A stretch of DNA of 64,000 nt, from IMG/VR virus record IMGVR_UViG_3300029922_000005, positions 62,001 through 126,000 of that record; one strand, 5' to 3'. Below the pieces are notes generated by a model. That model was not told the origin of the DNA and ran no database searches. It saw only the letters and a program-made list of their open reading frames with translations. Below, in pieces: positions 7,551 through 63,383 of this stretch. The translations under genes were made by a program, and so were the position numbers. Source of the stretch: a virus. Numbering within the stretch: the first letter of the stretch is position 1; each line of letters opens with the position of its first letter.

Positions 7551-7572
7551 TAATTTTTACTAACTTTTTTTT
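7542..7572 (+). terminator. intrinsic terminator
   Basis: A 12-bp perfect stem (AAAAGTTAGTAA / TTACTAACTTTT) with a 3-base loop, followed by T's. The 5' arm covers the stop codon of the preceding gene. Confidence 0.85.
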
Positions 7573-7584
7573 ATATATATTAGT

Positions 7585-8127
7585 ATGAAATATTTGAAAA
7601 AATTTGAAAATTATGATTTAAGAGGAGAATATCCTGATATGTTTGAACCAAGAACAGAAGAGGACGAGCCTCAAATTGTACCAGGGTTTGAAGATGGTAC
7701 AATAGATCCAGATGATGATGAGGTATATCATATTAGTAGTGAAGTTAGTGAGAAGGAACAATATGAAAATTTTAAAAAAATAACAAAAGAAAGAAATTTC
7801 AAAGAAACTAATAATGAAATAATTATAAACATTCACAAATTATATCATGATTTTTATATGTCTATTTATAATCCTAATAAGCATTATTCAAAATTTCTAA
7901 GAGAAGAAATTATAGGTAAATATATATCAGATGGAGTAATTGATTTTATGACTGATATAAAATATCATGGTATAATAAAAGGATTAAACTTTCAATATAT
8001 TAATGAAAGTGCTCTTGTTTCTGCTGAATTAGTCGGAATAGATGAGTTAAAATACGAAAATTCAATATGTATGAATATTATTACTATTGATAAACTAAAG
8101 ACTAATGCAAATAAATTCAATTTATGA
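7585..8127 (+). CDS. tagged cassette protein
   Basis: 180 residues: MKYLKKFENYDLRGEYPDMFE, an acidic region (residues 15-60, EEDEPQ, DPDDDEVYH), then a helical/beta domain (IIINIHKLYHDFYMSIYNP), ending NANKFNL. Its TGA overlaps the next ATG (ATGA). No recognised function. Confidence 0.75.
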   Translation: MKYLKKFENYDLRGEYPDMFEPRTEEDEPQIVPGFEDGTIDPDDDEVYHISSEVSEKEQYENFKKITKERNFKETNNEIIINIHKLYHDFYMSIYNPNKHYSKFLREEIIGKYISDGVIDFMTDIKYHGIIKGLNFQYINESALVSAELVGIDELKYENSICMNIITIDKLKTNANKFNL

Positions 8128-36533: not shown

Positions 36534-36550
36534 ATTTCAGGATTTTTTTG
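36519..36550 (+). terminator. intrinsic terminator
   Basis: CCTGAAATTT / AAATTTCAGG with a T-run; its left arm is inside the final codons of the preceding gene. Confidence 0.85.
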
Positions 36551-36627
36551 TTCTTTCTCTAAGATTTGAACTTAGTCATTCATTGTCAGAAAATGATATG
36601 CTATCATTACATCAAGAAAGAATATTG

Positions 36628-36713
36628 TCGCCTTGGTGGGGTTCGAACCCACAAGCTCACAATGAGCATCAGTTTCAAAGACTGAAATGTTTAGCCAATT
36701 CCATCACAAGGCA
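36628..36713 (-). tRNA. tRNA with UUG anticodon and class II (Leu-like) body
   Basis: An 86-nt cloverleaf. Acceptor TGCCTTG/CAAGGCG (first pair U-G); D stem ATG/CAT with 12-nt loop GAATTGGCTAAA; anticodon stem TCAGT/ACTGA with loop CTTTGAA, anticodon TTG; long variable arm GCTCA-TTG-TGAGC; T arm GTGGG-TTCGAAC-CCCAC; discriminator A; no encoded CCA. UUG reads the Gln codon CAA, but the long variable arm, 3-bp D stem and A73 are typical of tRNA-Leu. Anticodon and body therefore disagree on amino-acid identity. Apart from this tRNA and the leader at 36808, 36534-36907 holds only hairpins. Confidence 0.9.
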
Positions 36714-44252: not shown

Positions 44253-44606
44253 TTAATATATTTCAGTATTTATAAATCTATTAGTTTCATTATCTGTATT
44301 TTTTTCGACATCAGTTACATCTTCACCAGTTTTCATATTAAAATATCCTTCAGTATGAGTTTCATCTTTAAATCCATATATATCAACACTATTATAATTT
44401 AAAATATAATATCTTATGCTATCATTTACTTTTGAATGTTTCACATTTTCATAATTTATTATATTCAAATTACCATTATTATACTCATTAATTTGAGATT
44501 TTAGAGAAACTATAATAGATTTTTCTATTTTATTTTTATCATTCTTACATAAGCATAGCATAAATATTACACACACAGAAATAAAAATCATATACATTTT
44601 TTTCAT
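44253..44606 (-). CDS. small lipoprotein
   Basis: 117 residues. The signal peptide MKKMYMIFISVCVIFMLCLC has basic, hydrophobic and lipobox-like parts, with Cys 18 or 20 as the lipidation site. The mature part is polar, Asn-rich, with EGYFNMKTGEDVTDV. Surface or periplasmic; could act in exclusion of other phages (inference). Confidence 0.7.
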   Translation of the reverse strand: MKKMYMIFISVCVIFMLCLCKNDKNKIEKSIIVSLKSQINEYNNGNLNIINYENVKHSKVNDSIRYYILNYNSVDIYGFKDETHTEGYFNMKTGEDVTDVEKNTDNETNRFINTEIY

Positions 44607-44626
44607 ATTATTTATTTATTATCTTA

Positions 44627-46417: not shown

Positions 46418-48370
46418 TTAAAATTCAAATTCTAATAAATCAATAAATTTTTTACCATTTTTAGTTTTAATATCATTTATTGTTATTTTTGATGATATAA
46501 GTTGACAGTAATATGTTAATGCATTTTTTACATCAATTAAATTTGCACAAGGAGTTTTAATATCAGAAATAACAACATAATCTTCAATATATGATGCAAG
46601 AAAATTTGTTTCTACTTTTGATTTTTTAGATAATACTAAATTTTTATCTTTATCTAAATATATTGTTATGATATTATTATTTAATTCTATATAACCTTCA
46701 TTCGGTGTATTATGTACAATTTTTAATGAAAAATCATTTGTATGTGATGAATCATTTTGATCACTATATGATGAAGCTTGTTCTTTTATACCATTTTTAA
46801 AATTAAATTTATTTTTCTTAATTACATGTTTACATGGAGGAACATTATATTTATTTTTTAAATATGAAAGATGAAGTTTGATGTGTTTTATTTCTGTATA
46901 AATTATAAAATTATAATTATGATATCCACATGATCTACCTGCAAAACTTTGAACAATAAAACTTGTTCTATATGTAGAATCATTAACTGTAGTTCTATCA
47001 AATAACATTACAATATTTTCTTTCTCTAATTGATATGATTGCTTCATTTTCTCCTTAATAAATATTATGGTAGGAGCATCTGGTGCATTTTTTAATACAT
47101 CATTAATAACTTCTTTATCTTTCTCATAATATGTCAAAGTTTTAAATCCATCAGGTATTAGATTATTTGTATTTGTATTTTTATTTATTCTAACAATATA
47201 ATATCCTATTTTATTATTAAAGCTTTCTGCTTCATTTATAAAATGTTTTTCACCTTCTGTTGTTGATAAATCAAATGATTCTCTTAAAAAATTATTTTTT
47301 AAAAAATATTCTAAGCCTTTGTAATTAGGTCCGTGAGATAATTCAATAGTGTTCTTTCTTTTATATAAAATATTACCAACATGTTCTTCATACGGAGTTG
47401 CTGATATAGAAAATAAGAAAATATTTTTTTTTGATAAATCAGTTGAACCATTTAAATTTATACCATTTTTTTGAAGATAACTATTCATAGCACTATCAAC
47501 ATTTGATGCTAAATGAGCTTCATCAATAAATATAATACAATTATTTAAATCACCTACTTTATTTTTTCTTGACCAACGAATTAAATCTGGATTATGCATA
47601 ATACCATTCCTCTTTAATATTTTTTGATCATCTTGCCGACACTCTCCATGAGATATGTCAGTTTTTAATTGTTCTTTATTTGAATTATCACACATTGGAG
47701 TTATTAATACACTACTTCTAAATTTCAAATTTAGATATTCTCTTAATTCTTGATAAGTTTCTAATAAATATATTATATTACGTACAACACCAGTTTTACC
47801 TGCTTGAGTTTCTGCAGTTAACATATTATACCTACTATGTTTTGAATTAAGTTTTGATGATAACATATTATATATGCAACTTAATGATGCAAAAATCTGA
47901 TCATCAAATACGTGTGATTTATCATTAATATTATCAGTTCTATTTAATTTTTCTAATTTGATGCCAGTTAGACGATATATTTCAGAAATCAATTTATTAA
48001 TACGAAATTTTATACTATGAGCTAAATTAGTATTTGCTGGAATAGTTGTGGTGGTGGTAGTTGTTTTACTATTACTATTAGCAGATTTTATTAATTGGTG
48101 TTTTTTATTATATACAATATCTTTTAGATTTTCAATATCATATTTAGTACATTTATCATTTTTAATTCTAATATCTATTAATTTATTAATTGCAATAAGT
48201 GCTTTTTTTCGATTAGTATTCCATTTCTTACTATATAAAGCATCAACTAATTGATCATTGCTATAACGACTAAAATCAAATTTTCTTACGTATGGTTTAT
48301 TATTTTTAGTAAGTTGACCATTAATTAAATTTCTTTTAGCTTTAACACTAATAATGTTATTATTTACCAT
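46418..48370 (-). CDS. SF2-type helicase/ATPase next to cas3
   Basis: 650 residues. Walker A TAETQAGKTG, Walker B IIFIDEAH, motif III FSISATPY and motif VI-like VQSFAGRSCGYHN are in the right order. The N-terminal 120 residues are basic and end in a Thr run (SKTTTTTTTIP) acting as a linker; the C-terminal 150 residues are unrecognised. Domain 2 is reminiscent of phage and restriction-associated helicases with a DEAH box. It has its own promoter and follows the cas3 terminator, so it is not clearly part of the CRISPR operon. Confidence 0.8.
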   Translation of the reverse strand: MVNNNIISVKAKRNLINGQLTKNNKPYVRKFDFSRYSNDQLVDALYSKKWNTNRKKALIAINKLIDIRIKNDKCTKYDIENLKDIVYNKKHQLIKSANSNSKTTTTTTTIPANTNLAHSIKFRINKLISEIYRLTGIKLEKLNRTDNINDKSHVFDDQIFASLSCIYNMLSSKLNSKHSRYNMLTAETQAGKTGVVRNIIYLLETYQELREYLNLKFRSSVLITPMCDNSNKEQLKTDISHGECRQDDQKILKRNGIMHNPDLIRWSRKNKVGDLNNCIIFIDEAHLASNVDSAMNSYLQKNGINLNGSTDLSKKNIFLFSISATPYEEHVGNILYKRKNTIELSHGPNYKGLEYFLKNNFLRESFDLSTTEGEKHFINEAESFNNKIGYYIVRINKNTNTNNLIPDGFKTLTYYEKDKEVINDVLKNAPDAPTIIFIKEKMKQSYQLEKENIVMLFDRTTVNDSTYRTSFIVQSFAGRSCGYHNYNFIIYTEIKHIKLHLSYLKNKYNVPPCKHVIKKNKFNFKNGIKEQASSYSDQNDSSHTNDFSLKIVHNTPNEGYIELNNNIITIYLDKDKNLVLSKKSKVETNFLASYIEDYVVISDIKTPCANLIDVKNALTYYCQLISSKITINDIKTKNGKKFIDLLEFEF

Positions 48371-48392
48371 GGTTATATATTTTAATTACAGA

Positions 48393-48424
48393 CAAATATA
48401 AGGATAATATTTGAAACAAACAAA
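48393..48424 (-). promoter_or_regulatory. Bacteroidota-type promoter of the helicase gene
   Basis: Exact TTTG (48421-48424), 20-base spacer, TATATTTG (48393-48400) on the minus strand, 22 bases before the ATG. Confidence 0.85.
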
Positions 48425-48456
48425 AAAAGAAAGTATTTTTAACCTTCTTTTTTAAA
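48420..48456 (-). terminator. intrinsic terminator after cas3
   Basis: AAAGAAGGT / ACTTTCTTT (one G-T pair) with a T-run on the minus strand, just past the cas3 stop. Confidence 0.7.
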
Positions 48457-48462
48457 ATTTAA

Positions 48463-50760
48463 TTATATTAAATTATCGTAAATATCATTTTTTACTAATC
48501 CTAATTTTTCACAATAAACTTTATCAAATGCAATATATGGGGTTTCTTTTTTCCTGGCATAATCTTTAAGTATAGGTAAAGTATATTGATTATTTTTAAA
48601 TAACGAATATTTATTATAAAAAAATCTATCATCCTTAATTTTTATAATATTCTTTATTATTCTCTTAATTTTACTATCTAAACCTGTTATTGGTTCAGAT
48701 TTTTTAATATCTCGATTAAAATCTACACTAAATGAGTCCGTCATTTGTCTTTTTTTTGCATATTTATATATACAATATATATCTCCTCCACTTCTTAATT
48801 TAGTATTATTATTTTTAATTGTATTGTTTTTAGATTTCTCCATCATCTTATACGGTTCAATTTTACATAAATTTAATAAACTTGTTTTTAGTTTAGATGT
48901 GATAAACTTTTTTAAATTTTCATTATTTTCATTATTAAACATATTATAATATTCATATAATTCATTTATTGAATATAAATTTCCGTTAATAATATGTTTT
49001 TTAATAAATGAAATCCATAATTTATTTAATTCTAAATCATATTGATTTGATATACTAGTGTTTTCTGAGTTTCTAAATTCACTTTTATTTTCATTAAAAA
49101 ATAAATTTATTTTTGGAGTTTTATTTTTTTTATAATAAAAATGTCCCCACCTATCACATCGACCTATTCTTTGTAAAGTAGTTTCTGGAGACATCACACT
49201 ATCTGTTAAATTTAAAAATGATATATCCATAGATGCTTGTAAAATAGGTGCTGATATAATACTATCTTTATTCAAAATATTTTTATTTTCTTTGCCATAT
49301 AAATGAATAATTTTATTCATTATTTTTTCTTTATCAGAATCTATATATCTACTATGTATTAAAATATCGCCTTTTTTATAACAATATAATCTTTGAGAAT
49401 TTGAAATAGAATTCATAATAACAACTGAATCTTTTTCATTAGTTATTGTATCAATATCATCAATATAATTAATCAAATATTTACCATTATGTGCAGATGT
49501 ATAATGAGAATTTTTATTTGGTAAAATTTTAGTTTTTTTATCTATATTTGTTCCATCCCATAAATATTCCATTATAGTTTGTGTAGCACTTAATAATAAT
49601 GTGTGACTATTTGTTAACATATGTCTAGATTTCATGATATTAATAAAACATGCAAATAGTGCATCATCTTTAATTAATTCATGATATTCATCAAAAATCA
49701 CATCACAATAATTAATAACAAATAATCTATTTCTAATAGAATTATTCACATTAGGAGATAAATAATTATCTATATTAGTTATTATAATATCAGATGTAAA
49801 TTCTTTAGTGTTTTCATTATTTGTTTTCTGTCTATTACCTGTTAAATATAACTCAACTGATAATTCAACTGATATATTTTTTAATTCTTGTAAAACAGAA
49901 TTATATACATTTTCAGCAATAATATTTCTAGGGCATACCCATATTAATTTTTTATTAGATTTTAATGACCATAATAACCCCAATAATGTTTTACCAAAAC
50001 CGGCTGGGGCTTTCATTATTGTAGTTCGATTATTTAATGATTGATTTGCGTAATCAACTTGAGAATCAAAACGAATAGAATCATAATTAATAGGTTTGCT
50101 ATATACTTTAGTATCTTTATATGATAAATTGTTTATTAATTCTTCACAATAATCATCATCATACAATATTTTTTCTTGATCTGATGCTGATACAAGTCTA
50201 TCAGCAGTTATAACACAAGATCTTACTAATGAATTTTTAGAATTTGTTAAACTATTTGGTTCATTTAAATAATATAATGGAGTATTGATAGATTTTTCAA
50301 AATTTATATCTTCAAATAATATATTTTCATTCATTAAAAAATTATACATTGATAAAATATTTTTTTTATCATCATCACACATATCACTTAAAATTAATGA
50401 TATATTATCATTACTTATATAATTTATTTTTGGTTTAGAATGATGCCAATATATTGAATCTAAAGAATATCTATATTCATCATTATTTAAAATACATGAC
50501 ACAAATGCCCAACTTATTTCATGATGAAATATTGGAGAATTAATAAAAGAAATTGTTTTACTTTTTGATTTTATATAATTTTGAAAATCTAAATTACATT
50601 TACCTAAATCATGCAATAAACAAGCTATTGAAATTTGTTTTTCAAGGTCTTCATTTAATGATAACTTTTTTGATAACATCATTCCTATTTTTTTAACTGC
50701 TTTTGAATGAGTTATTAATGATATTCCACTACTATTTGATACAATTTCTTCTAATTTCAT
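48463..50760 (-). CDS. cas3: Cas3 nuclease-helicase (HD domain + SF2 helicase)
   Basis: 765 residues. The N-terminal HD nuclease has H18 (THSKAV), H50-D51 (LLHDLGK), H79/H80 (IFHHEISW), H106/H107 (YWHHSKP) and the terminal TADR (186-189). The helicase has Walker A APAGFGKT (251-258), DEYH (357-360), SAT (391-393), an ASMDISF segment and QRIGRCDRWG motif VI. Cas3 is recruited by a type I effector and degrades target DNA. There is no N-terminal Cas2 fusion, which type I-F Cas3 normally has. Located downstream of the array, in the same direction as cas7-cas5-cas6, and probably expressed from the same operon or array transcript; no exact promoter is seen in the 64 bases before the array remnant. 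Confidence 0.92.
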   Translation of the reverse strand: MKLEEIVSNSSGISLITHSKAVKKIGMMLSKKLSLNEDLEKQISIACLLHDLGKCNLDFQNYIKSKSKTISFINSPIFHHEISWAFVSCILNNDEYRYSLDSIYWHHSKPKINYISNDNISLILSDMCDDDKKNILSMYNFLMNENILFEDINFEKSINTPLYYLNEPNSLTNSKNSLVRSCVITADRLVSASDQEKILYDDDYCEELINNLSYKDTKVYSKPINYDSIRFDSQVDYANQSLNNRTTIMKAPAGFGKTLLGLLWSLKSNKKLIWVCPRNIIAENVYNSVLQELKNISVELSVELYLTGNRQKTNNENTKEFTSDIIITNIDNYLSPNVNNSIRNRLFVINYCDVIFDEYHELIKDDALFACFINIMKSRHMLTNSHTLLLSATQTIMEYLWDGTNIDKKTKILPNKNSHYTSAHNGKYLINYIDDIDTITNEKDSVVIMNSISNSQRLYCYKKGDILIHSRYIDSDKEKIMNKIIHLYGKENKNILNKDSIISAPILQASMDISFLNLTDSVMSPETTLQRIGRCDRWGHFYYKKNKTPKINLFFNENKSEFRNSENTSISNQYDLELNKLWISFIKKHIINGNLYSINELYEYYNMFNNENNENLKKFITSKLKTSLLNLCKIEPYKMMEKSKNNTIKNNNTKLRSGGDIYCIYKYAKKRQMTDSFSVDFNRDIKKSEPITGLDSKIKRIIKNIIKIKDDRFFYNKYSLFKNNQYTLPILKDYARKKETPYIAFDKVYCEKLGLVKNDIYDNLI

Positions 50761-50814
50761 ATTTTTTATTTTAATTGTGAATAAAAATAATTTTTTAATT
50801 ATTTATAATATAAA

Positions 50815-50850
50815 TCATAAATTTAATTACTGATTTATATAAATATAATA
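50815..50850 (-). repeat. degenerate terminal CRISPR repeat
   Basis: The part TTACTGATTTATATAAATAT is recognisable as the AT-rich half of the repeat while the GTTGAGACTC half is lost. It lies 29 bases (one spacer length) from the first intact repeat, so it is an eroded repeat at the array's far end. Confidence 0.7.
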
Positions 50851-50879
50851 AACACATATTTAAATAGTGTCACTATTTT

Positions 50880-53287
50880 GTTGAGATTCCCTTACGGATT
50901 TATATAAATAATATCGAATTCGACTTCTGTGCGACCTTGTTCGTCGTTGAGACTCCCTTACGGATTTATATAAATAATATCTTCACTTAATGTAATAAAT
51001 TCTAAATCATGTTGAGACTCCCTTACGGATTTATATAAATAATATCTTATCATTTTTTTCAAAAATAGAAAGAGAAGTTGAGATTCCCTTACGGATTTAT
51101 ATAAATAATATCTTATCATTCAGAATTATTTTTTCTTCTTTAGTTGAGACTCCCTTACGGATTTATATAAATAATATCAACTATAGAAACAATAGAAAGA
51201 GATTTATTGTTGAGACTCCCTTACAGATTTATATAAATAATATCAATATTTGTCATTTGTTTTTCTTCTATATATGTTGAGACTCCATTACGGATTTATA
51301 TAAATAATATCTAAACTGTCATCTAAATGATCATTTGATTTGTTGAGACTCCCTTACGGATTTATATAAATAATATCATTATCTGAATATGCTGCAAATC
51401 ATAAACTGTTAAGACTCCTTTACGGATTTATATAAATAATATCTGCATACAGAATTCACCGTTGTAATTCATTGTTGAGACTCCATTACGGATTTATATA
51501 AATAATATCTTTAACAAGTGTCTTCCCTCCTTTTCTATAGTTGAGATTCCCTTACGGATTTATATAAATAATATCTAAATACTCTGAATATTCAACTGGT
51601 AAGAAGTTGAGATTCCCTTACGGATTTATATAAATAATATCAAAATCATCTGTGAAAATTGGAGTTACACCGTTGAGACTCCCTTACGGATTTATATAAA
51701 TAATATCAAATTATTTTATAACTGAATATCAATCAATGTTGAGACTCCCTTACGGATTTATATAAATAATATCTGTTGTACCTAAAACTAAAACTGTTTC
51801 TCTGTTGAGACTCCCTTACGGATTTATATAAATAATATCTAATTCTAATTCTAAATCTGTATAATCACCGTTGAGACTCCCTTACGGATTTATATAAATA
51901 ATATCTTATTTGAAAATCTTTACAAGAAAATCAGGGTTGAGACTCCCTTACGGATTTATATAAATAATATCTTACCAATTAAGAAAAAGAATTGATACCT
52001 TGTTAAGACTCCCTTACGGATTTATATAAATAATATCTTATTAATAGATGTGCTGGCACCACCTTCGTTGAGACTCCCTTACGGATTTATATAAATAATA
52101 TCTTTTGTATTTGAAATAATATCACTTCCTTTGTTGAGACTCCCTTACGGATTTATATAAATAATATCTTATATTACTATATTTATTAAATATGATAAGT
52201 TGAGACTCCCTTACGGATTTATATAAATAATATCTGAATCACTTTTTGTTTTACGTAGTAATTCGTTGAGACTCCCTTACGGATTTATATAAATAATATC
52301 ATCAAGAACTTCGGTTGCCTTTAATTCATTGTTGAGACTCCCTTACGGATTTATATAAATAATATCCTATAACCTCCCTATTTTTTTCATCAACTGTTGA
52401 GACTCCCTTACGGATTTATATAAATAATATCATATAATCACTTCTTTTCCTGCTCTGCTTTGTTGAGACTCCCTTACGGATTTATATAAATAATATCATT
52501 GCACTAAAAATGTCATTAATAGGGTTCGTTGAGACTCCCTTACGGATTTATATAAATAATATCGCACTTTTCCCATTTTTTCTGGCTACACTTGTTGAGA
52601 CTCCCTTACGGATTTATATAAATAATATCATTTCTTCTTTGAATGATTTGTAGAAATATGTTGAGACTCCCTTACGGATTTATATAAATAATATCTAGCG
52701 TATTTGATTCTAATAAGCAATATGTGTTGAGACTCCCTTACGGATTTATATAAATAATATCACCGATTAACTCTTTTCTTAATTGACTATAGTTGAGACT
52801 CCCTTACGGATTTATATAAATAATATCTAGCGTATTTAATGTAAATAAGCAATATGTGTTGAGACTCCCTTACGGATTTATATAAATAATATCAAAAGCG
52901 AATTCAACATTGACTGACGCTCGTTGAGACTCCCTTACGGATTTATATAAATAATATCGACAAATTAAATACATATATATAACATATGTTGAGACTCCCT
53001 TACGGATTTATATAAATAATATCTGATATAATTGAAAGTCAATCATTTTATTTGTTGAGACTCCCTTACGGATTTATATAAATAATATCCTGTTATGTTA
53101 GAATAAGTAATTGCACTATGTTGAGACTCCCTTACGGATTTATATAAATAATATCAAATCTATTTAAAGAGATTGAACAGCTAGAGTTGAGACTCCCTTA
53201 CGGATTTATATAAATAATATCTAGCAGAACAGGATAGACATCAATTCATTGGTTGAGACTCCCTTACGGATTTATATAAATAATATC
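50880..53287 (-). CRISPR. CRISPR array, 37 repeats and 36 spacers
   Basis: Repeat 36 bp: on the plus strand GTTGAGACTCCCTTACGG followed by ATTTATATAAATAATATC. Spacers are 29-31 nt, mostly 30. The last 19 repeats (52067-53287) are identical, while variant repeats lie at 50880, 51077, 51209, 51276, 51408, 51474, 51540, 51606 and 52002. The degenerate end is therefore at low coordinates, the leader is on the cas6 side and the array reads on the minus strand like the cas genes. In that direction TCC-GTAAG-GGA forms a small hairpin and is followed by exactly eight bases, GTCTCAAC, as a type I 5' handle would be. The repeat also has a 12-bp palindrome, ATTTATATAAAT. Confidence 0.98.
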
Positions 53288-53388
53288 AGGATATTTATAA
53301 TTAATTGATATTGAGTTATTTATAGTATATATTAATAAATAAAAATGAGTTATTAATATACGTATATCATTATATTTATTCATTTTTA
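53288..53388 (-). promoter_or_regulatory. probable CRISPR leader
   Basis: 101 A/T-only-type bases between the cas6 stop and the first (cas6-side) repeat. No TAnnTTTG box is visible, so the array may be co-transcribed with the cas genes. Confidence 0.5.
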
Positions 53389-54093
53389 TCATACTAATTT
53401 ATATTTATCTTTATTTTCTGTTTTATAAATTGTACCAAATCCAGAACCAGTTGATTGTCCTATACCTAAATTATAAATTTTTTCTGCCACATCAGATGAA
53501 CAAAATATACTAATGTGACATTGATTAGCTTCATTTTTGACATTTTTAACCATTATTTTCTTTACTTTATGTGAAGGATGATTTATTATTTTAACATCAA
53601 AATCTTTTAAATTAATACCGTTATAAATTTTACTCAATTTTTTTATAATATGGTTTTTTACAATATATACGAAATCAGAATCATTTAAAGTTGAATAAGT
53701 ATATTTCTTTTTATTAATATGCTTTCTAATAATAAATGGAGATAATGTTGCGAAATGATTCCATCCATTTATAAATTTTTCAAAGATAAAATTAATTTTA
53801 TTAAATTTCATTCCCCAATTTAAATCTTGATTAGACATCACTCCACTTATTAAATCATTCAAAAATTCTTCATTTTTTGAAGTTACTACAATAATTCCTC
53901 CATTCTTAAATGATAAATGTAACTTATCTTCAGTTAGGTTTCCACCATATAAAGATGATATAGAGTAATCATTTTTAGAATCATGATATTTATTATTAAC
54001 TCCAAGACATTTGTGTATATAATAATTAATATATGATTGATTCTTAATCGGTACCAATGTTTTATTTTCTGTAAATTCAATTTTTATTCTCAT
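53389..54093 (-). CDS. cas6: Cas6 crRNA endonuclease (type I-B/III-like)
   Basis: 234 residues. MRIKIEFTENKTLVPIKNQSYINYYIHKCLG is the usual Cas6 opening strand and helix. The C-terminal glycine-rich loop GIGQSTGSGFGTIYK (about 214-228) is the Cas6 hallmark. It has the two-ferredoxin-fold layout of Cas6 from type I-B and III systems rather than the shorter Cas6f of type I-F. Likely cuts the repeat 8 nt before the spacer. Overlaps cas5 by 17 bases. Confidence 0.88.
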   Translation of the reverse strand: MRIKIEFTENKTLVPIKNQSYINYYIHKCLGVNNKYHDSKNDYSISSLYGGNLTEDKLHLSFKNGGIIVVTSKNEEFLNDLISGVMSNQDLNWGMKFNKINFIFEKFINGWNHFATLSPFIIRKHINKKKYTYSTLNDSDFVYIVKNHIIKKLSKIYNGINLKDFDVKIINHPSHKVKKIMVKNVKNEANQCHISIFCSSDVAEKIYNLGIGQSTGSGFGTIYKTENKDKYKLV

Positions 54094-54976
54094 ATTCTTC
54101 TAATTTATTAATATTAATATAACTATCTAAATCATTTTCAATCATTTCATCTTCATTTATCAAATCTTCTATCCAAACAAATCCTCCATCTAATAACGTT
54201 GCACAACCTTTTGAATTTTTAATTTTGTCAACATATTCTGATGTTAAAGGAATTATTATAGAACCACTAATTTTTGTAATATTATCAATTCCTCTAATAT
54301 TTGTTAATGTAGTTTTTGGATTTTGACCAATTGTTATTGCTGATTGATTTACAATACCAATAAGAAGATTTGCAATTGGAGTTTTATTATTTTTAACTAA
54401 TTTTTTACAAAAAATTGTAAAATCAGAATTATCATTATATTGTTTAATGAAATTTGCAAATTTTATTTTGCTATTATTTTTTATTTCATTATTAATATCT
54501 ATAACTAATTTAGAACTACTATAATATGTAATAATCTCTTTTATTATATACATTGCAGGTTTTGATTTAACATCATAACCTAATATATTATTAAATAAAT
54601 TAATCATTTCTATAAATAGATCAGTAGTTAAATAACATTCTAGATTTTCCCAATAAATAAAACTTCTTTTTTTATCTCTATAGCTATCATAAGCAAATTT
54701 ATTTGTTTGTATAAACTCATTCATATAACACATTTTACCACTAGATTTATTTAAAAATCTTGTTGTATCTATTTTTATATAAGCTAAATTAGCTATATTA
54801 AATATATCTGATATAGGTTTAATTAATGTATCTCTATATGTTGGACTTGGACGTTCACCCATTAAAACATGCAGCATGTTACTTATTTGATGAACACTTA
54901 TACTAGGTTTTTGATTATTAGTTGCTTTTTCAAAAAATCCAGCATCTTTAAATGACAATTTTAAAAAATATTCCAT
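54077..54976 (-). CDS. cas5: Cas5 of the Cas8-less I-F2 (Cas5fv) type
   Basis: 299 residues. Similar in layout to Cas5fv of Shewanella putrefaciens as I remember it: an N-terminal strand (FLKLSFKDAGFFEKATNN), LMGERPSPTYRDTL, a central helical insertion of about 130 residues that in I-F2 stands in for the large subunit, and a C-terminal ferredoxin half (KISGSIIIPLTSEYVDKI; GCATLLDGGFVWIEDL). Caps the crRNA 5' handle and may read the PAM. Followed by an acidic Asn-rich tail overlapping cas6. The family call is from memory of sequence patterns and needs a profile search. Confidence 0.7.
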   Translation of the reverse strand: MEYFLKLSFKDAGFFEKATNNQKPSISVHQISNMLHVLMGERPSPTYRDTLIKPISDIFNIANLAYIKIDTTRFLNKSSGKMCYMNEFIQTNKFAYDSYRDKKRSFIYWENLECYLTTDLFIEMINLFNNILGYDVKSKPAMYIIKEIITYYSSSKLVIDINNEIKNNSKIKFANFIKQYNDNSDFTIFCKKLVKNNKTPIANLLIGIVNQSAITIGQNPKTTLTNIRGIDNITKISGSIIIPLTSEYVDKIKNSKGCATLLDGGFVWIEDLINEDEMIENDLDSYININKLEEYENKN

Positions 54977-54986
54977 ATTATTAGAA

Positions 54987-56060
54987 TTATTTAGCTTCTT
55001 TTTGAGATTTTAATTTAGCTTCTTTTTTTTCTTTTTTATCATCTTTAGCTTTCAATTTAGCATCTATTCTTTTTTTAATTATAATAGATCTCTTATCTGA
55101 CAATTCTATATCTAAAGTTTTTGCATTTTCAAAATCATATTCAGTATAAAAATTTTCATTTTCAAAATTTAAATTATCTATAACATCTTTTGTTAATTCA
55201 ATCCATCCATCAGAATTATTTTTTTTATCATTAAATACGTCATATACTAATTTAATTTTAAGTTTAGACGTAACAACACTAGATCCAGATTTATAAATAT
55301 TCATTTTTAGCATTTTATATAATAGATTTTTTGTTAGTTCAACAACATCTGTATTGGATAATAAAAAACCATATTCTGGTAATTCAACAACACTATTTGT
55401 AATCCTATAATATTTTAATTCCGAATTAAATGATGGTAATCTTTTTTTCAATAATTCTGAATATAAAGGAAATAAATCTGGATTGAATGCTAATCGATCT
55501 AAATTTTTAGAACAACTAATAAATTGCATTTGCATTAAATCAATATTACCATCAGTCTCATATGTTATATCTCCTACAGTTTCTTTGTTAAATAATGAAG
55601 TATCACTTATTTTTTCACCACTAACTGTCATAAGTTCTATTTTTGATTTACAATTATTTGTTTGTTCAGCGTCAATTATACATAAAACACTTTTTCTTCT
55701 AATTGTTTTATCAATCTCATCTTCATTCAATGCAAATAAATGACCTCTATTTATAATTGCAGGAGAAGCCAACATTGACACAAGTAAATAATTATTATGC
55801 AATATATTTGGAGATTGAAATGGAATATCATCAATAAAAATATTATGTCTTAAACAATTACTAGAAATTTTTATTTTATAATCATATTCACCATTACTTT
55901 TCTGATATATATTTTTTTTTGCAAATATTAAATTATTATCAGTTTCATACTTTCCACCACTAATTTCATTCCATATCCATTTTTGTCCATTACTATCACA
56001 GTTAACAACACCATTACCTTCTAATTCCATTTTAAATAAAATGTTCTTTACTTTTTTCAT
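54987..56060 (-). CDS. cas7: Cas7 backbone protein of the I-F2 (Cas7fv) type
   Basis: 357 residues. GNGVVNCDSNG, then KISSNCLRHNIFIDDIPF (about 65-82), SLFNKETVGDITYETDG and LMQMQFISCSKNLDRLAFNPD follow the order and spacing of Cas7fv (in which GHGVVNWNG, ISQNCIRHHLF and FSKTTFGDTEY occur). Forms the filament along the spacer. The last 35 residues are a Lys-rich tail (KAKDDKKEKKEAKLKSQKEAK). First gene of the operon, 10 bases before cas5. Confidence 0.78.
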   Translation of the reverse strand: MKKVKNILFKMELEGNGVVNCDSNGQKWIWNEISGGKYETDNNLIFAKKNIYQKSNGEYDYKIKISSNCLRHNIFIDDIPFQSPNILHNNYLLVSMLASPAIINRGHLFALNEDEIDKTIRRKSVLCIIDAEQTNNCKSKIELMTVSGEKISDTSLFNKETVGDITYETDGNIDLMQMQFISCSKNLDRLAFNPDLFPLYSELLKKRLPSFNSELKYYRITNSVVELPEYGFLLSNTDVVELTKNLLYKMLKMNIYKSGSSVVTSKLKIKLVYDVFNDKKNNSDGWIELTKDVIDNLNFENENFYTEYDFENAKTLDIELSDKRSIIIKKRIDAKLKAKDDKKEKKEAKLKSQKEAK

Positions 56061-56092
56061 ATTAAATAATTTTAAATTGTTTTTATAAAGTA

Positions 56093-56124
56093 CAAAAGTA
56101 AAGTAAATATTTGGTATAACCTAA
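56093..56124 (-). promoter_or_regulatory. promoter of the cas operon
   Basis: TACTTTTG at 56093-56100 (minus) fits TAnnTTTG; the -33 position 20 bases upstream is TTAG, a weak match. It lies in the 65-base gap between the last tandem paralogue and cas7. Confidence 0.65.
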
Positions 56125-56125
56125 T

Positions 56126-56389
56126 TTAATTAAAAATATTATTCAATTTTTTCAATTTAATTTTTCTAATCTCATTTTTTCTATAAAAATAAGTATATAA
56201 ATATTCTTCATCACGTTTAAAAGATGAATAAGCATTTTTATCATCAGATATCAAATACTGATAATCATCATCATAATTAATAATAAAATGAACAATATAA
56301 TATCTATCTTTATGATATATTGAATATGATGTTGTTAAATCTTTTTTACATAATAACTTATCTCCTACATTAAGATTCTGATTCTTCAT
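56126..56389 (-). CDS. tandem small-protein family, copy 1
   Basis: 87 residues: MKNQNLNVGDKLLCKKDLTTSY, DRYYIVHFIINYDDDYQYL, and the basic end YFYRKNEIRKIKLKKL. Family layout: GDKLLCKK opening strand, KYY(I/V) core, and a C-terminal amphipathic basic helix, consistent with an SH3-like barrel (inference). Last gene of the cluster and nearest to cas7; overlaps copy 2 by 20 bases. Confidence 0.85.
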   Translation of the reverse strand: MKNQNLNVGDKLLCKKDLTTSYSIYHKDRYYIVHFIINYDDDYQYLISDDKNAYSSFKRDEEYLYTYFYRKNEIRKIKLKKLNNIFN

Positions 56390-56636
56390 AAATTTTTTCT
56401 AATTTAATTTTTCTTTCTTCTTGTTTAGTATAAAAATGTTCAGACATCTCTTTTATGCTAAATGAAAATGGTAATATTCTATCATTTTCATCATTAAAAT
56501 AATAACAATATTCATAAGGACCGTATACTACCATAACAATATAATAATTATCAACATATAAATATTTATTTGCTCCAACTAGAAGATTTTTTTTACATAA
56601 TAATTTATCTTCATCATTAATATCCTGTTTCTTCAT
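56370..56636 (-). CDS. tandem small-protein family, copy 2
   Basis: 88 residues, MKKQDINDEDKLLCKKNLLVG with DEDK instead of VGDK; core DNYYIVMVVYGPYEYCYYF; end TKQEERKIKLEKIYEESES. The codons for its last residues overlap, in another frame, the start of copy 1. Confidence 0.85.
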   Translation of the reverse strand: MKKQDINDEDKLLCKKNLLVGANKYLYVDNYYIVMVVYGPYEYCYYFNDENDRILPFSFSIKEMSEHFYTKQEERKIKLEKIYEESES

Positions 56637-56889
56637 AAAGTTTTTCTAATTTTATTTTTCTCTCCTCTTGTTTAGTATAAAAATGTTCATAAAAAAATCT
56701 AACGCTATATCTAAAAGAATAATATTTTTTTTTATCAAATTCTATATAATAACAATAATCAGTATTATTGTCAAATAATTTAATATCATAAACAATATAA
56801 TATTTATTTTTATTAAAACTTGCATATAATTCATTTAAATTTTTTTTACACAATAACTTATCACCTACATTAAGATTCTGATTCTTCAT
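56617..56889 (-). CDS. tandem small-protein family, copy 3
   Basis: 90 residues, MKNQNLNVGDKLLCKKNLNELYASF; core KYYIVYDIKLFDNNTDYCYYIEF; end TKQEERKIKLEKLYEETGY. Overlap with copy 4 is 20 bases. Confidence 0.85.
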   Translation of the reverse strand: MKNQNLNVGDKLLCKKNLNELYASFNKNKYYIVYDIKLFDNNTDYCYYIEFDKKKYYSFRYSVRFFYEHFYTKQEERKIKLEKLYEETGY

Positions 56890-57136
56890 AAAGTTTTTCT
56901 AATTTAATTTTTCTCTCTTCTTGTTTAGTATAAAAATGATTTAGTAATTCATTTTTATTTAAAAAATATGGATATATTCCATTAGATTCATTAAATATAC
57001 AGCAGGCAAAACCTTTAAATGAATCATTCAGAATTTTATGATAAATATAATATTTACATTCTATAAAATGTGTACTATAATTAGCTATTAAATCTTTTTT
57101 ACATAATATTTTATCACCTTCATTAAAATTATTCAT
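56870..57136 (-). CDS. tandem small-protein family, copy 4
   Basis: 88 residues with the short N-terminus MNNFNEGDKILCKKD shared only with copy 6; core CKYYIYHKILNDSFKGFACCIF. Overlap with copy 5 is 8 bases instead of 20. Confidence 0.85.
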   Translation of the reverse strand: MNNFNEGDKILCKKDLIANYSTHFIECKYYIYHKILNDSFKGFACCIFNESNGIYPYFLNKNELLNHFYTKQEERKIKLEKLYEESES

Positions 57137-57380
57137 AAAGTTTTTCTAATTTGATTTTTCTTTCTTCTTGTTTAGTATAAAAATACTGATGTAAATATGA
57201 TTCACTAAAAAATGGTAATATTGTATTGAATTCTGATCTTAAATCATAAAAATATTCACTATAATCAGTTGAAAAATTTTTAATATCATCTACATAATAA
57301 TATTTATCTTTAATAAATATTTTATCAATCTCCTCTTTACATAATAATCTATCTCCTACATTAATATTCTGTTTCTTCAT
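57129..57380 (-). CDS. tandem small-protein family, copy 5
   Basis: 83 residues, the shortest copy. MKKQNINVGDRLLCKEEIDKIFIKDKYYYVDDI; its C-terminus stops at EKLYE because the 8-base junction truncates the usual EES tail. Confidence 0.85.
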   Translation of the reverse strand: MKKQNINVGDRLLCKEEIDKIFIKDKYYYVDDIKNFSTDYSEYFYDLRSEFNTILPFFSESYLHQYFYTKQEERKIKLEKLYE

Positions 57381-57627
57381 AAAGTTTTTCTAATTTTAAT
57401 TTTCTAATCTCATTTTTCATAAAAAAATGACCAACTAAATCATGTTCAGTTAAATAATATGAAAATATATTATTAGATTCACTTATATAACAGCAGTAAA
57501 AATCATTAAAAATACCACTAAACATATTATCATGAAAAATATAATAATCACCTTCTATAATATGGTTACCATAATAAGTTAAATCCTTTTTACATAATAT
57601 TTTATCACCATCATTAAAATTATTCAT
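57361..57627 (-). CDS. tandem small-protein family, copy 6
   Basis: 88 residues, MNNFNDGDKILCKKDLTYYG; sister of copy 4 (EGDYYIFHDNM, CCYISESNNIF). The end FFMKNEIRKLKLEKLYEE has NEIRK in place of QEERK. Copies 4-5 and 6-7 may be a duplicated two-gene unit. Confidence 0.85.
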   Translation of the reverse strand: MNNFNDGDKILCKKDLTYYGNHIIEGDYYIFHDNMFSGIFNDFYCCYISESNNIFSYYLTEHDLVGHFFMKNEIRKLKLEKLYEETEY

Positions 57628-57895
57628 AATTTTCTATTTTATCTAATTTTCTTTTTCTTTCTTCTTGTTTAGTATAAAAATATTCATATAAATCTTCTTC
57701 ACCACAAAATAATATTAAATTATCATCATCATCAAATAAATAATAATAATAAAAATCCACACCGCTTATAGTATTAGAAATAATATAAATTGATATCATA
57801 GCATAATATTTGTCTATTTTGAAATTTTTATTTATATTAATTATATTATATTTACATAATAAATTATCTCCTACTTTAAGATTTTGATTCTTCAT
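57620..57895 (-). CDS. tandem small-protein family, copy 7
   Basis: 91 residues, MKNQNLKVGDNLLCKYNIININ; core DKYYAMISIYIISN; ends EERKRKLDKIENYE, truncated at an 8-base junction like copy 5. Confidence 0.85.
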   Translation of the reverse strand: MKNQNLKVGDNLLCKYNIININKNFKIDKYYAMISIYIISNTISGVDFYYYYLFDDDDNLILFCGEEDLYEYFYTKQEERKRKLDKIENYE

Positions 57896-58151
57896 AAAGT
57901 TTTTCTAATTTGATTTTTCTTTCTTCTTGTTTAGTATAAAAATATTCACAAAATTCTCCGTAATATCTAAAATTAACAGGTTGATATTGTTCACATATAA
58001 GCATATAAATATAATCAGTATAATTATTATTAGTTGGAGTAATTTCACAAACATAATAATATTCAAATTCAATAAGATATGTACTTTCTGAATTAAAAAG
58101 ATTTTTTTTGCATAATAATTTATCTCCTACATTAATATTCTGCTTCTTCAT
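57876..58151 (-). CDS. tandem small-protein family, copy 8
   Basis: 91 residues, MKKQNINVGDKLLCKKNLFNSESTYLIEFEYYYVCEI; ends EERKIKLEKLYEESKS. 20-base overlaps on both sides. Confidence 0.85.
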   Translation of the reverse strand: MKKQNINVGDKLLCKKNLFNSESTYLIEFEYYYVCEITPTNNNYTDYIYMLICEQYQPVNFRYYGEFCEYFYTKQEERKIKLEKLYEESKS

Positions 58152-58401
58152 AAAGTTTTTCTAATTTAATTTTTCTTTCTTCTTGTTTAGTATAAAAATA
58201 TTTACAAAATTCTTTTTCATCACAACATACCAATGATTCGAAATCGTCTAAATAATAGAAATAATAATCTTTACGAGCTACATTAATAATATCAATATAT
58301 TTAATATAATAATATTTACCTTTTATAATATATGTAGAATTTGATAAAAAACTAATCTTACATAATAACTTATCTCCAATATTAATATTCTGCTTCTTCA
58401 T
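58132..58401 (-). CDS. tandem small-protein family, copy 9
   Basis: 89 residues, MKKQNINIGDKLLCKISFLSNSTYIIKGKYYYIKYI; Cys-containing middle (SLVCCDEKEFCKYF). 20-base overlaps on both sides. Confidence 0.85.
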   Translation of the reverse strand: MKKQNINIGDKLLCKISFLSNSTYIIKGKYYYIKYIDIINVARKDYYFYYLDDFESLVCCDEKEFCKYFYTKQEERKIKLEKLYEEAEY

Positions 58402-58666
58402 TTTTTAATTTTTCTAATTTAATTTTTCGTACTTCATTTTTAGTATAAAAATAATCATCAAATTCTTCTATATAATAGAAATCTTTATTGGTATCATCTA
58501 TTATATTATATTTATAATAAAGTACATCAATGTCAGCACTCAAAAGTACATCAAAGTCAGCACTCAAAATTATATATTCTACACCTTTCGTTAATGTCAG
58601 ATATGATTTATTAACATCAATTTTACACAATAATTTATCTCCTATATTAAAATTTTGATTCTTCAT
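58382..58666 (-). CDS. tandem small-protein family, copy 10
   Basis: 94 residues from ATG 58666 (MKNQNFNIGDKLLCKIDVNKS); a longer ORF start at 58744 lies inside copy 11 and is rejected. A 24-base direct duplication gives the repeat LLSADFDV/LLSADIDV. Confidence 0.85.
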   Translation of the reverse strand: MKNQNFNIGDKLLCKIDVNKSYLTLTKGVEYIILSADFDVLLSADIDVLYYKYNIIDDTNKDFYYIEEFDDYFYTKNEVRKIKLEKLKNEEAEY

Positions 58667-58934
58667 GAAGTTTTTGTAATTTAATTTTTCTAGTTTCGTT
58701 TTTTGTGTAAAAATAAGTATAAATATCTTCATATGAACAAACAATATTCATTTTTTCATTTCCTATGGTCATATAATAATATGCATTATCAATATTAAAA
58801 AATTTATTATCAATATTAAAAAATTTAATATCATAAACAGTATAACATGAATTTAGTATATAATATTCAAAATTTGGATGAAATATACGTTTACATATTA
58901 ATTCATCTCCTATATTAAGATTCTGTTCCTTCAT
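58647..58934 (-). CDS. tandem small-protein family, copy 11
   Basis: 95 residues, MKEQNLNIGDELICKRIFHPN; a short duplication yields KFFNIDNKFFNIDN. Shows that these genes also grow by internal slippage. Confidence 0.85.
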   Translation of the reverse strand: MKEQNLNIGDELICKRIFHPNFEYYILNSCYTVYDIKFFNIDNKFFNIDNAYYYMTIGNEKMNIVCSYEDIYTYFYTKNETRKIKLQKLHEESKF

Positions 58935-59184
58935 TACCCAACTTTTTTAATTTAATATTCCTAACTTCCTTCTCAGTGTAAAAAAATTCATAAATATCTT
59001 TTTCATACTGAACTTCTACCTTTACATTATTATCATCAATTATATAAATAAAAGTATAATATTCAGTCTCAAATAAACTATCACTTATAATATATTCGTT
59101 CCCTTTATGAATAGATATCTTATGATGAATATAATCTTTTTTGCATAATAATTTATCTCCTACTTTAAAATTATGATCCTTCAT
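58915..59184 (-). CDS. tandem small-protein family, copy 12
   Basis: 89 residues, MKDHNFKVGDKLLCKKDYIHHKISIHKGNEYIISDS; tail TEKEVRNIKLKKLGNEGTES. Overlap with copy 13 is 14 bases, the only such case. Confidence 0.85.
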   Translation of the reverse strand: MKDHNFKVGDKLLCKKDYIHHKISIHKGNEYIISDSLFETEYYTFIYIIDDNNVKVEVQYEKDIYEFFYTEKEVRNIKLKKLGNEGTES

Positions 59185-59464
59185 TTATTTCATTTAATTT
59201 CATGCTTCTAATTTCATTTTTAGTATAAAAATAAGTATATAAATATCTTTCCATCCAAAATGAATATCGTTCATTATTATCATCAATTATATAATAAAAA
59301 TATTCATTATAATCCACAAAAATATCATTAATTAATCTAATTTCATCAACAACATAATATTTACCTTTTTTAAAAAATAATAATGAAGTATTATTAGATA
59401 CCAATGATTTTAAATCATTTTTGCATAATAATTTATCTCCAATATTAAGATTCTGTTTATCCAT
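59171..59464 (-). CDS. tandem small-protein family, copy 13
   Basis: 97 residues, MDKQNLNIGDKLLCKNDLKSLVSN; core KGKYYVVDEIRLINDIFVDY; end NEIRSMKLNEINEGS. 8-base overlap with copy 14. Confidence 0.85.
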   Translation of the reverse strand: MDKQNLNIGDKLLCKNDLKSLVSNNTSLLFFKKGKYYVVDEIRLINDIFVDYNEYFYYIIDDNNERYSFWMERYLYTYFYTKNEIRSMKLNEINEGS

Positions 59465-59780
59465 TTATTTTCTGCAATTTCTTATTTCTTAATTCTTTTT
59501 TTTCATAAAAATAATCATGAAAAAAACTTTCAGACCAAAATGAACATGATTTATTCATTTCTCCATTTATATAATAAATATAATCATCTTGTCCAAATAT
59601 ATGATCACATGTATTCTTATAAGCATATTTATCATCTATTATTTTTATATCAACAATAGAATAATATTTATCTTTTATAAAATGAGAAAATATTATTAAT
59701 TTATCATCACTAATTAAATTTTGAAATAAATCTTTTTTACATAATAACTTATCTCCTAAATTAATATTCTTTTTCGTCAT
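59457..59780 (-). CDS. tandem small-protein family, copy 14
   Basis: 107 residues, the longest copy. MTKKNINLGDKLLCKKDLFQN; a longer loop between core strands (DKYAYKNTCDHIFGQDDYIYYI); end KKELRNKKLQKING. Confidence 0.85.
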   Translation of the reverse strand: MTKKNINLGDKLLCKKDLFQNLISDDKLIIFSHFIKDKYYSIVDIKIIDDKYAYKNTCDHIFGQDDYIYYINGEMNKSCSFWSESFFHDYFYEKKELRNKKLQKING

Positions 59781-60027
59781 TTTTTAATTTGTTTAATTTT
59801 ATTTTTCTTTCTTCTTGTTTAGTATAAAAAACATCATAAAAATCAACTTTACGTAGATATAATAAATTTTTGCTATTTTTTTCTTTTAATGAATAAAAAT
59901 TACTACTATAAAATATGTTAGTATTAACTATTTCATATTCTCTATCTTTATAAAAAACTTCAGTATAATTATAATAACTATTTTTGCATAATAATTTATC
60001 TCCAATATTAATATTCTGTTTATCCAT
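59761..60027 (-). CDS. tandem small-protein family, copy 15
   Basis: 88 residues, MDKQNINIGDKLLCKNSYYNYTEVFYKDREYEIVNT; end EERKIKLNKLKNDEKEY. First intact gene of the cluster; its start overlaps the decayed copy upstream. Confidence 0.85.
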   Translation of the reverse strand: MDKQNINIGDKLLCKNSYYNYTEVFYKDREYEIVNTNIFYSSNFYSLKEKNSKNLLYLRKVDFYDVFYTKQEERKIKLNKLKNDEKEY

Positions 60028-61748: not shown

Positions 61749-63383
61749 ATGATTCAAATAGACGACAAAAAAATATTTTTTCCTCTCAAATACGAACCAA
61801 AATCTTACCAAATTGATGGACTAAATTTTATTAAAAATAGTATATTGACAGGTAAACGTTTTATTTTAGAAAATTTGCCGACTGGGGTTGGTAAGTCATT
61901 CATGGTCATAATGCTAGCCAATTGGTATAAAGGATTCGTGAATCCAGATGCCAAATTTGATATTCTTACAGCATCGAAGGTACTTCAAGGCCAGTATATC
62001 AGAGATTTTCCGTTCATAAATGATTATAGAGGCAAATCTAACTATTATTGTAAAGATTTTGATTGTGATTGCGGTACAGCTAAAGAACTCTGTGCTATAA
62101 TGAAAAAACATTGTGATCAATGTCCATATGACATTGCTAAAAATTCCTGGATATCTGGAGATATAGGTTTGAGTAATTTTCATCTATTTGATACATTATC
62201 ATTATTTCAACCTGATATTTTAAAAAGAAGAGATGGTAATGTACTTATAATTGATGAGTGTCAATCATTCGAAGAAACCTTCTCATCCTATCTTTCCTCA
62301 AAATTAAGTTCAAAAACTTTAAAAAGATGTGGATTTGGATTAAAAGAAATTGAAGAGATTGATAGCAAATATATTTCAAAAATTAAATTTTTAGATAAAT
62401 ATTTAGAATTTTTAGAAAGAAAGTTAATACCAATGTTAGAGAAAAAAAGAACTCAATTTGAATCTGATATTGCTGGATCATCAAAATCAAAACAAAAAGT
62501 AGAGTTATCTAAATATTTACAAAATATTGATAGTAAACTATTATCGTTTAAACATTTATTTGATTCACATAAAAATGATCCAGATAATGTAGTTCTTGAT
62601 ATCAATAAAAATAAGAGTGAAAAAAATTATAGTGGGATAGAGTTGGTAACTGAACATATTTTCGTTTATGAGTACCTAAATCAATATGTATGGTCTAAAT
62701 ACGATCATATAATTTTTATGTCTGCTTCTGTACTCGATTCTAAAATGTTTAGTTTCATTAATGGATTAGATGAAGAATTAACAAGTTATCATGAAATGGA
62801 TTCTCCTTTTGAATTAAAAAATCATCCTATATTTTATATGAAACTTGGTAAAATGTCTTTTTATAGTAAAGAAGAGACTTTTAAGAATCAGATACCTTGG
62901 ATAAAAAAAATATTAGCTAAATATAAAAACAAAAAAGGAATAATTCACACATCAAATTATGAAATAACAGAATGGTTAAAAGAAAATATTATGGATGAAA
63001 GGTTATTATTTCACACTACTGAAGATAGAAATGAAATTCTTGAAAAACATTTAACAAGTACAGCTCCAACAGTTTTAGTAAGTCCATCTATGATGGAAGG
63101 AATTTCTTTAGATGATGAATTAGCTCGTTTTCAAATAGTGTTAAAAATATCATTCGCAAATTTGGGTAGTAAAAAAATTAAAGCAAGACAAAAAATGATG
63201 CCTGAATGGTATAGCTGGAATGCATGTGTTCAAACAATACAAGAAGTAGGTAGAGGAATTCGTAGTGAAACAGATTACTGCGATACGTTTATATTAGACT
63301 CAAACTTTTCAGATTTATTAAAATATAATTCTAATATATTACCTAAGCACTTTACAGATTCTATAAAAGTTTTAAAAACATAA
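61749..63383 (+). CDS. XPD/DinG-like iron-sulfur helicase
   Basis: 544 residues. Walker A LPTGVGKS (about 43-50); a four-Cys Fe-S region (YYCKDFDCDCGTAKELC..HCDQCPYD, about 98-128); motif II IIDECQ (DECx, not DEAH); helicase domain 2 with GIIHTSNYEI, SPSMMEGISL and motif VI QEVGRGIRSETDYCDTFILD. 5'-3' SF2 helicases of this kind occur in large phages for replication or recombination. Context gives no further clue. Confidence 0.85.
   Translation: MIQIDDKKIFFPLKYEPKSYQIDGLNFIKNSILTGKRFILENLPTGVGKSFMVIMLANWYKGFVNPDAKFDILTASKVLQGQYIRDFPFINDYRGKSNYYCKDFDCDCGTAKELCAIMKKHCDQCPYDIAKNSWISGDIGLSNFHLFDTLSLFQPDILKRRDGNVLIIDECQSFEETFSSYLSSKLSSKTLKRCGFGLKEIEEIDSKYISKIKFLDKYLEFLERKLIPMLEKKRTQFESDIAGSSKSKQKVELSKYLQNIDSKLLSFKHLFDSHKNDPDNVVLDINKNKSEKNYSGIELVTEHIFVYEYLNQYVWSKYDHIIFMSASVLDSKMFSFINGLDEELTSYHEMDSPFELKNHPIFYMKLGKMSFYSKEETFKNQIPWIKKILAKYKNKKGIIHTSNYEITEWLKENIMDERLLFHTTEDRNEILEKHLTSTAPTVLVSPSMMEGISLDDELARFQIVLKISFANLGSKKIKARQKMMPEWYSWNACVQTIQEVGRGIRSETDYCDTFILDSNFSDLLKYNSNILPKHFTDSIKVLKT

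Follow-up and report, generated by a model that had tools for sequence, protein, structure and literature searches.

Relation to Described Systems

Type I-F2 (I-Fv) is the closest described relative of the phage-borne CRISPR locus considered here, which lies in a 64,000-nucleotide stretch of viral DNA (the window; bases 62001-126000 of the 181,039-base IMG/VR record IMGVR_UViG_3300029922_000005, 22% G+C). In I-F2, Cas5fv, Cas6f, Cas7fv and a Cas2-Cas3 protein suffice, the system is active without Cas8, and an added helical domain of Cas5fv reads a GG protospacer-adjacent motif (PAM) (PMC4605320, PMC6546366). The window locus (48463-56060, minus strand) is read in the order cas7, cas5, cas6, leader, array and cas3. 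As in the I-F2 systems of Shewanella putrefaciens CN-32 and of Legionella and Acinetobacter plasmids (L059-L061), it combines a Cas7fv-type backbone and a Cas3fv-type helicase-nuclease with the order cas7-cas5-cas6, and no Cas8 was found; Cas11 likewise did not turn up, although no search was aimed at it. Unlike I-F2, the phage system has no cas1 in its operon (nine viral records, possibly incomplete) and no Cas2 domain on Cas3, its Cas6 is Cas6b-like instead of Cas6f, its array has 36-nt repeats and 30-nt spacers instead of 28 and 32, and its Cas5 is barely similar. Because Cas6f, the Cas2-Cas3 fusion, cas1 and the I-F2 repeat type are all missing, the locus is not a member of I-F2 but a variant of I-F2-like systems that appears to be new, and as far as sequence tells it would work as I-F2 does. 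We put at roughly two in three the probability that it is a compact phage-borne cassette from an I-F2-like ancestor, which would carry out DNA interference without Cas8 and acquire spacers in trans. What sequence shows in its favor is the set of genes present, the kinship of Cas7 and Cas3 with I-F2, the loss of the Cas2 domain, the type of Cas6, the array format, the spread among phages and a leader-end difference in one phage family.

Among phage-borne systems, that of ICP1 is also a type I-F relative, an I-F1 system in which Csy1/Cas8f and Cas6f are present. It differs from the window system in being complete, with an adaptation module of its own (PMC11656645). Huge phages carry a type I-C variant (Al-Shayeb 2020, PMC7162821) that is, like the present system, a phage-borne type I without cas1 and cas2, genes often absent from phage CRISPR systems; it differs in having a Cas5d-like protein, no Cas6 and another helicase replacing Cas3. 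The type VI-B system of Flavobacterium columnare resembles the phage system in its 36-bp repeats, a leader-distal GTTGT-type motif and the absence of its own cas1 and cas2, whereas its effector is the RNA-targeting, bacterium-encoded Cas13b. The 2025 classification includes I-F4, with HNH, among the rare variants (PMC12669027). Phage systems without cas1 and cas2 are covered by the reviews and surveys that were searched; the present gene combination is not among them, although an earlier mention elsewhere is possible.

The Effector Genes

The cas7 gene (54987..56060, minus strand) encodes a Cas7fv-like backbone subunit of 357 residues. Its product matches the NCBIfam model cas_Cas7fv with an E value of 2.1e-19 and 70 bits (curated cut-off 200 bits) and is called Cas7fv by PADLOC. 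Its family matches are confined to Cas7fv and one Cas7f model, which also gives a true Cas7fv 567 bits. A profile built from this protein and the Cas7 of a related phage contig (L009, below) matched only I-Fv Cas7 chains in the PDB, 5o6u (E 3.6e-16) and 9g44, and hhalign aligned Cas7 with plasmid Cas7fv over 276 columns at 99.5% probability. These matches identify the Cas7fv component of I-F2 in the window locus. A limited search of the genome contig collection and of 396 genomes of one sampled phylum returned no cellular homologue of Cas7.

The cas3 product (48463..50760, minus strand; 765 residues) consists of an HD nuclease and a helicase. PADLOC gives Cas3fv an E value of 6.5e-66 and 221 bits, whereas the highest-scoring I-B model reaches 129, with the same preference in L009 and in a second related contig, L057. 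A two-sequence phage Cas3 profile matched 9g44_A in the PDB (E 4.4e-52), and a tblastn search of 72,556 plasmids matched four records, every one I-Fv. Alignment to three Cas3fv proteins from plasmids shows the phage proteins starting at the HD domain without the N-terminal ~105 residues, the region that holds the I-F Cas2 domain PF21384 in plasmid I-Fv Cas3; profile scans of phage Cas3 did not find PF21384 either. The protein retains its HD residues (H18, H50-D51, H79, H106-H107, D187), Walker A and DEYH, and four phage lineages conserve the HD-helicase portion as far as it is sequenced. The stand-alone HD-Cas3 of the initial annotation is therefore stand-alone in having no Cas2 domain, but it is not an unrelated Cas3: it is the I-F2 protein minus its N-terminal Cas2-like domain.

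The cas6 gene (53389..54093, minus strand; 234 residues) overlaps cas5 and encodes a Cas6b-like endoribonuclease, matched by TIGR01877 (E 6e-22, over the cut-off), Pfam PF01881 and PADLOC Cas6b (E 6.5e-36). Its Gly-rich motif GIGQSTGSGFG is intact and conserved in three phages, and no similarity to Cas6f was detectable. By profile it is thus of the I-B/III kind, as had been proposed, and the Cas6f of I-F2 is not found. None of the genes matched Cas8b, Cas7b or Cas5b of type I-B; the I-B scores come only from Cas6 and from secondary scores of Cas3.

The gene between cas7 and cas6 (54077..54976, minus strand; 299 residues) occupies the place of cas5fv in I-F2, and this position is conserved among the phages. 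Its product has no Pfam, NCBIfam or PADLOC Cas5 match. The best ungapped block shared with Cas5fv (SISVHQISNMLHVLMGER in the phage protein, EITLDTVLGVLNRLIGDQ in Cas5fv) reached a column-shuffle p of 0.003-0.007 for widths of 24-30 columns, compared with 0.20 for 18 columns and 0.06 for 40; the second-best block at 18 columns, a weak one, is colinear and lies near the C terminus. As there is no profile match and the colinear blocks are weak, the gene is named cas5 by position; the protein is probably derived from Cas5fv, with a different central part. The I-F2-like backbone of the initial annotation is supported for Cas7 by NCBIfam, PDB 5o6u and hhalign; the Cas5fv assignment draws on position and two weak motifs, not on a profile.

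Array Format and Adaptation Genes

The array (50880..53287, minus strand) has 37 repeats (GATATTATTTATATAAATCCGTAAGGGAGTCTCAAC) and 36 spacers and is separated from cas6 by an A+T-rich leader of ~100 bp (53288..53388, minus strand), which runs from cas6 to the first repeat. All repeats are 36 nt long and 28 of the 37 are identical; 30 spacers measure 30 nt, five 29 nt and one 31 nt, a regularity far beyond chance. The leader is placed on the cas6 side because the 19 repeats nearest cas6 are identical and substitutions occur at the opposite end. An Rfam search gave no match. Genes and array were all found in one direction, as the initial annotation had described them. Spacers 7 and 9 from the leader (52696-52857) agree in 26 of their 30 nucleotides (ACATATTGCTTATT...AAATACGCTA) and look as though two variants of a single target had supplied them.

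The repeats of the phage arrays end in ...ATCACAAC (L009, L057) or ...GTCTCAAC (window). They were compared with arrays adjacent to Cas9 or Cas6 in genomes of one phylum, that of a Kapaibacterium assembly, which we take to be placed with Bacteroidota by GTDB. In nine of ten Cas9-linked arrays the unit measures 64-67 bp or the spacers 30 nt. Repeats of the Cas9-linked arrays are mostly 36 nt long and end in ...ACAAC or ACAGC, and a degenerate repeat, where visible, occupies the end at which the phages have theirs. The five Cas6-linked loci have repeats of 29-35 nt and spacers of 36-39 nt (Fisher p 0.002 for the difference in format, on the author's hand classification), and plasmid I-Fv arrays have 28-nt repeats and 32-nt spacers. 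In F. columnare the II-C and VI-B repeats are both 36 bp with a common leader-distal motif GTTGT, and deletion of the II-C cas1 showed that the VI-B array gains spacers in trans (PMC8092290). The complement of GTTGT stands at the corresponding end of the phage repeats; the II-C/VI-B format is full in L009 and L057, while the window repeat has GTTGA. Because the 36/30 format, the repeat ends and the GTTGT complement match, the phage array would be fit for a type II-C-like host integrase.

Cas1 (PF01867) was not found in nine viral records (the 181-kb record and eight related ones), nor Csy1/Cas8f (PF09611) in nine or Cas2 (PF09827) in eight; the records may be incomplete, so the evidence for the absence of cas1, cas2 and cas8 is strong and not final. 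PADLOC found no Cas8 among ten further large open reading frames (ORFs) of the window record. Cas9 had no match among the cas genes or large ORFs scanned, no Cas9-specific search of the whole record having been made. Nor was a complete bacterial operon found nearby.

Spread between Phages and Change at the Leader End

Seven more IMG/VR contigs, up to 256 kb long, hold the window locus with the same 36 spacers, and because locus and spacers are identical the eight contigs are counted as one phage. The four genes and an array recur in two other contigs. In L009 (66 kb) the order is array-cas3-cas7-cas5-cas6; in L057 (124 kb) and its sister contigs it is cas3-cas7-cas5-cas6-array, the I-F2 order without cas1. 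A truncated fourth cas3 was found in L058. Gene order is thus not constant among the phages.

When whole contigs were compared protein by protein, the cas proteins were the strongest shared (223-515 bits for Cas3, Cas7 and Cas6, 125-155 for Cas5); the best non-cas shared protein reached 132 bits, and few proteins were in common. Since the window phage and two contigs that are otherwise almost unrelated all have the four genes and an array, the cassette appears to move between phages, and its recurrence in three such dissimilar phage contigs shows that it is kept. The simplest reading is a cassette passing between unrelated phages. Its presence in otherwise dissimilar phages, the Cas9-linked array format and the leader-end spacer variation in a relative were all missed by the initial annotation. 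For the Bacteroidota phage named there the support is indirect and comes from promoters: the Bacteroidota-type motif TTG-N16-22-TAnnTTTG is nearly 4-fold enriched in the L057 phage, a strong signal, ~1.6-fold in the window phage, a weak one, and not at all in the L009 phage. A TAnnTTTG element (TACTTTTG) lies upstream of the cas7 start codon in the window.

Two contigs of equal length (13,959 bp) in the L057 family, L056 and L051, differ at 26 positions, 25 in the leader-end spacer plus one single-nucleotide polymorphism (SNP). The two leader-end spacers are wholly different (CGTCAACC... in L056, AAAAGGCT... in L051), while leader and repeats are identical. The L051 spacer is also present in every other sister contig that reaches the array. 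Because L053, which has nine other SNPs, also carries it, the L051 spacer is probably the older; the difference would then stem from replacement in L056 or from recombination between arrays. In both cases, a new leader-end spacer appears to have entered the L057-family lineage, in a single event seen in a single contig.

Three further features of these contigs were noted. Downstream of cas6 in L009 (12709-12810) there is a second mini-array of two degenerate repeats and one spacer (GTTGTCGGTGGTGCTGCTAATAGTATTT), apart from the main array at 7051-7614. A 421-residue protein adjoining the L057 array (L057:16767-18032) reads, in the author's opinion, like a poly(ADP-ribose) polymerase and matches PHROG 23333, 'polymerase'. 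Matches to the T4-like major capsid protein (Gp23, PF07068) also occur in the contig of L057 (G009:C1), where 60 kb separate the two short ORFs concerned (104508-104690 and 44471-44620), possibly a split or interrupted gene.

Proposed Mechanism and Alternatives

From these features we infer how the complex would assemble, read a PAM and cleave DNA, what it would target and where its Cas1-Cas2 would come from. The array would be transcribed from the leader on the cas6 side, and the Cas6b-like enzyme would cleave each 36-nt repeat immediately 3' of a small stem, so that 8 nt (GUCUCAAC in the window, AUCACAAC in both relatives) remain as a 5' tag. A small stem (UCC/GGA in the window, UUU/GAA in L009) does end exactly 8 nt before the spacer, as Cas6 cleavage predicts. 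Single-sequence folding of the repeats was no better than that of shuffled sequences, so the evidence for the stem is, by the author's reading, a single compensatory change from C-G to U-A among the three repeats. Cas5 would cap the tag and Cas7 coat the 30-nt guide, without Cas8 or Cas11, and the PAM would be read by a mostly helical insertion in Cas5. HD-Cas3, recruited by the complex, would then shred the DNA of rival phages or other elements. Cas1-Cas2 acting in trans would insert new spacers at the leader end; its most likely provider is a type II-C system of the host, since the phage repeats copy the array format of such systems.

Several results weigh against this mechanism. Neither hhalign nor HMMER found a significant match between Cas5 and Cas5fv, and Cas5 did not match the profile of the helical domain, PF20158, a further difference from I-F2. 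AlphaFold models of Cas5 and Cas7 (mean predicted local distance difference test scores of 49 and 36) are too poor to use, and a fold search with them gave noise. The window repeat end CTCAAC fits the II-C motif less well than the CACAAC of L009 and L057, no host adaptation module was linked to these phages, and the window array is the same in all eight contigs, turnover being confined to one contig, L056, of the L057 family. In the data searched, no target was found for any spacer tested: the 36 window spacers had no match in their own phage genome within 5 mismatches, the three phage genomes no match to foreign spacers within 4 mismatches, and blastn against the phage collection nothing significant. 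Translated spacers matched their own ORFs at about the shuffled level, except for one weak A+T-rich match to L009, and exact scans of the viral contig collection with four spacer patterns returned only the arrays themselves.

The alternative that survives best keeps the same effector and makes the array effectively frozen, its spacers pre-dating capture or arriving on the rare occasions when phage arrays recombine, and no adaptation in trans taking place now. The 36 unchanging spacers of the eight window-phage contigs fit it, as do the degenerate leader-distal repeats and the failure to find cas1 or cas2 in the viral records searched. We nevertheless consider it unlikely, since L056 differs from its sister contigs by one SNP and a complete leader-end spacer, and a recombination donor would have to share leader and flank; the donor lineage must therefore itself have gained the spacer. 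Improbable, too, is a complex that binds without destroying its target and silences host or rival genes, with Cas3 little used or used otherwise. In its favor, Cas3 is missing from some phage systems, repression without cutting is seen with type IV-A effectors (PMC7162821, PMC12714560), and no spacer target was found; against it stand the intact HD and helicase residues and the conservation of the HD-helicase part in four phage lineages. That the array serves host Cas9 or Cas13b, the phage cas genes merely processing or protecting CRISPR RNAs, seems the most far-fetched, for although Cas9-linked arrays of the sampled phylum have this format and the VI-B repeats of F. columnare likewise measure 36 bp (PMC8092290), array and four cas genes stay together in three phage contigs despite differing gene order, and a degenerate pattern modelled on the L057 repeat matched no host repeat in 396 genomes.

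The preferred reading thus remains a Cas8-less, DNA-targeting phage cassette with spacers acquired in trans. Its fuller form, a mobile phage-restricted variant in which an I-F2-derived effector was rewired to a II-C-format array and memory is written by the Cas1-Cas2 of a host Cas9 system, is offered tentatively. The cassette makes it testable how phage systems without cas1 and cas2 gain spacers. If the reading is correct, a virus may keep an updatable CRISPR memory without adaptation genes, in an array matched to the integrase of its host, and a very small DNA-targeting type I set of four genes without Cas8 would be present outside Proteobacteria.

Neighboring Genes

The interval of the initial annotation began at 46418, which is the boundary of a 650-residue ORF (46418-48370, minus strand), the downstream neighbor of cas3. 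This ORF has a P-loop (AETQAGKTG) and a DEAH-like motif, and no family scored above threshold. It was rejected as a member of the locus, which proper spans 48463-56060, because no CRISPR family matched it and the related contigs lack a counterpart (no blastp relative in L009 or L057).

Directly upstream of cas7 stand 14 tandem ORFs (56126-60027, minus strand), mostly of 83-107 residues and mutually similar (MKNQNLNVGDKLLCKK...FYTKQEERKIKLEKL), which look like the result of repeated gene duplication; the one member scanned had no Pfam or PHROGs match. A DinG/XPD-like helicase (61749-63383, plus strand; PHROG 2488, E 2e-81; PADLOC typeIV_DinG, E 6e-52) lies 5.7 kb from cas7. A DinG gene lies near the Shewanella I-F2 locus as well. 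The helicase was rejected as a member of the system, there being no counterpart in the L009 or L057 phages. Elsewhere in the window, two adjacent tRNA-Gln genes with anticodons CTG and TTG are found at 36550-36713 on the minus strand.

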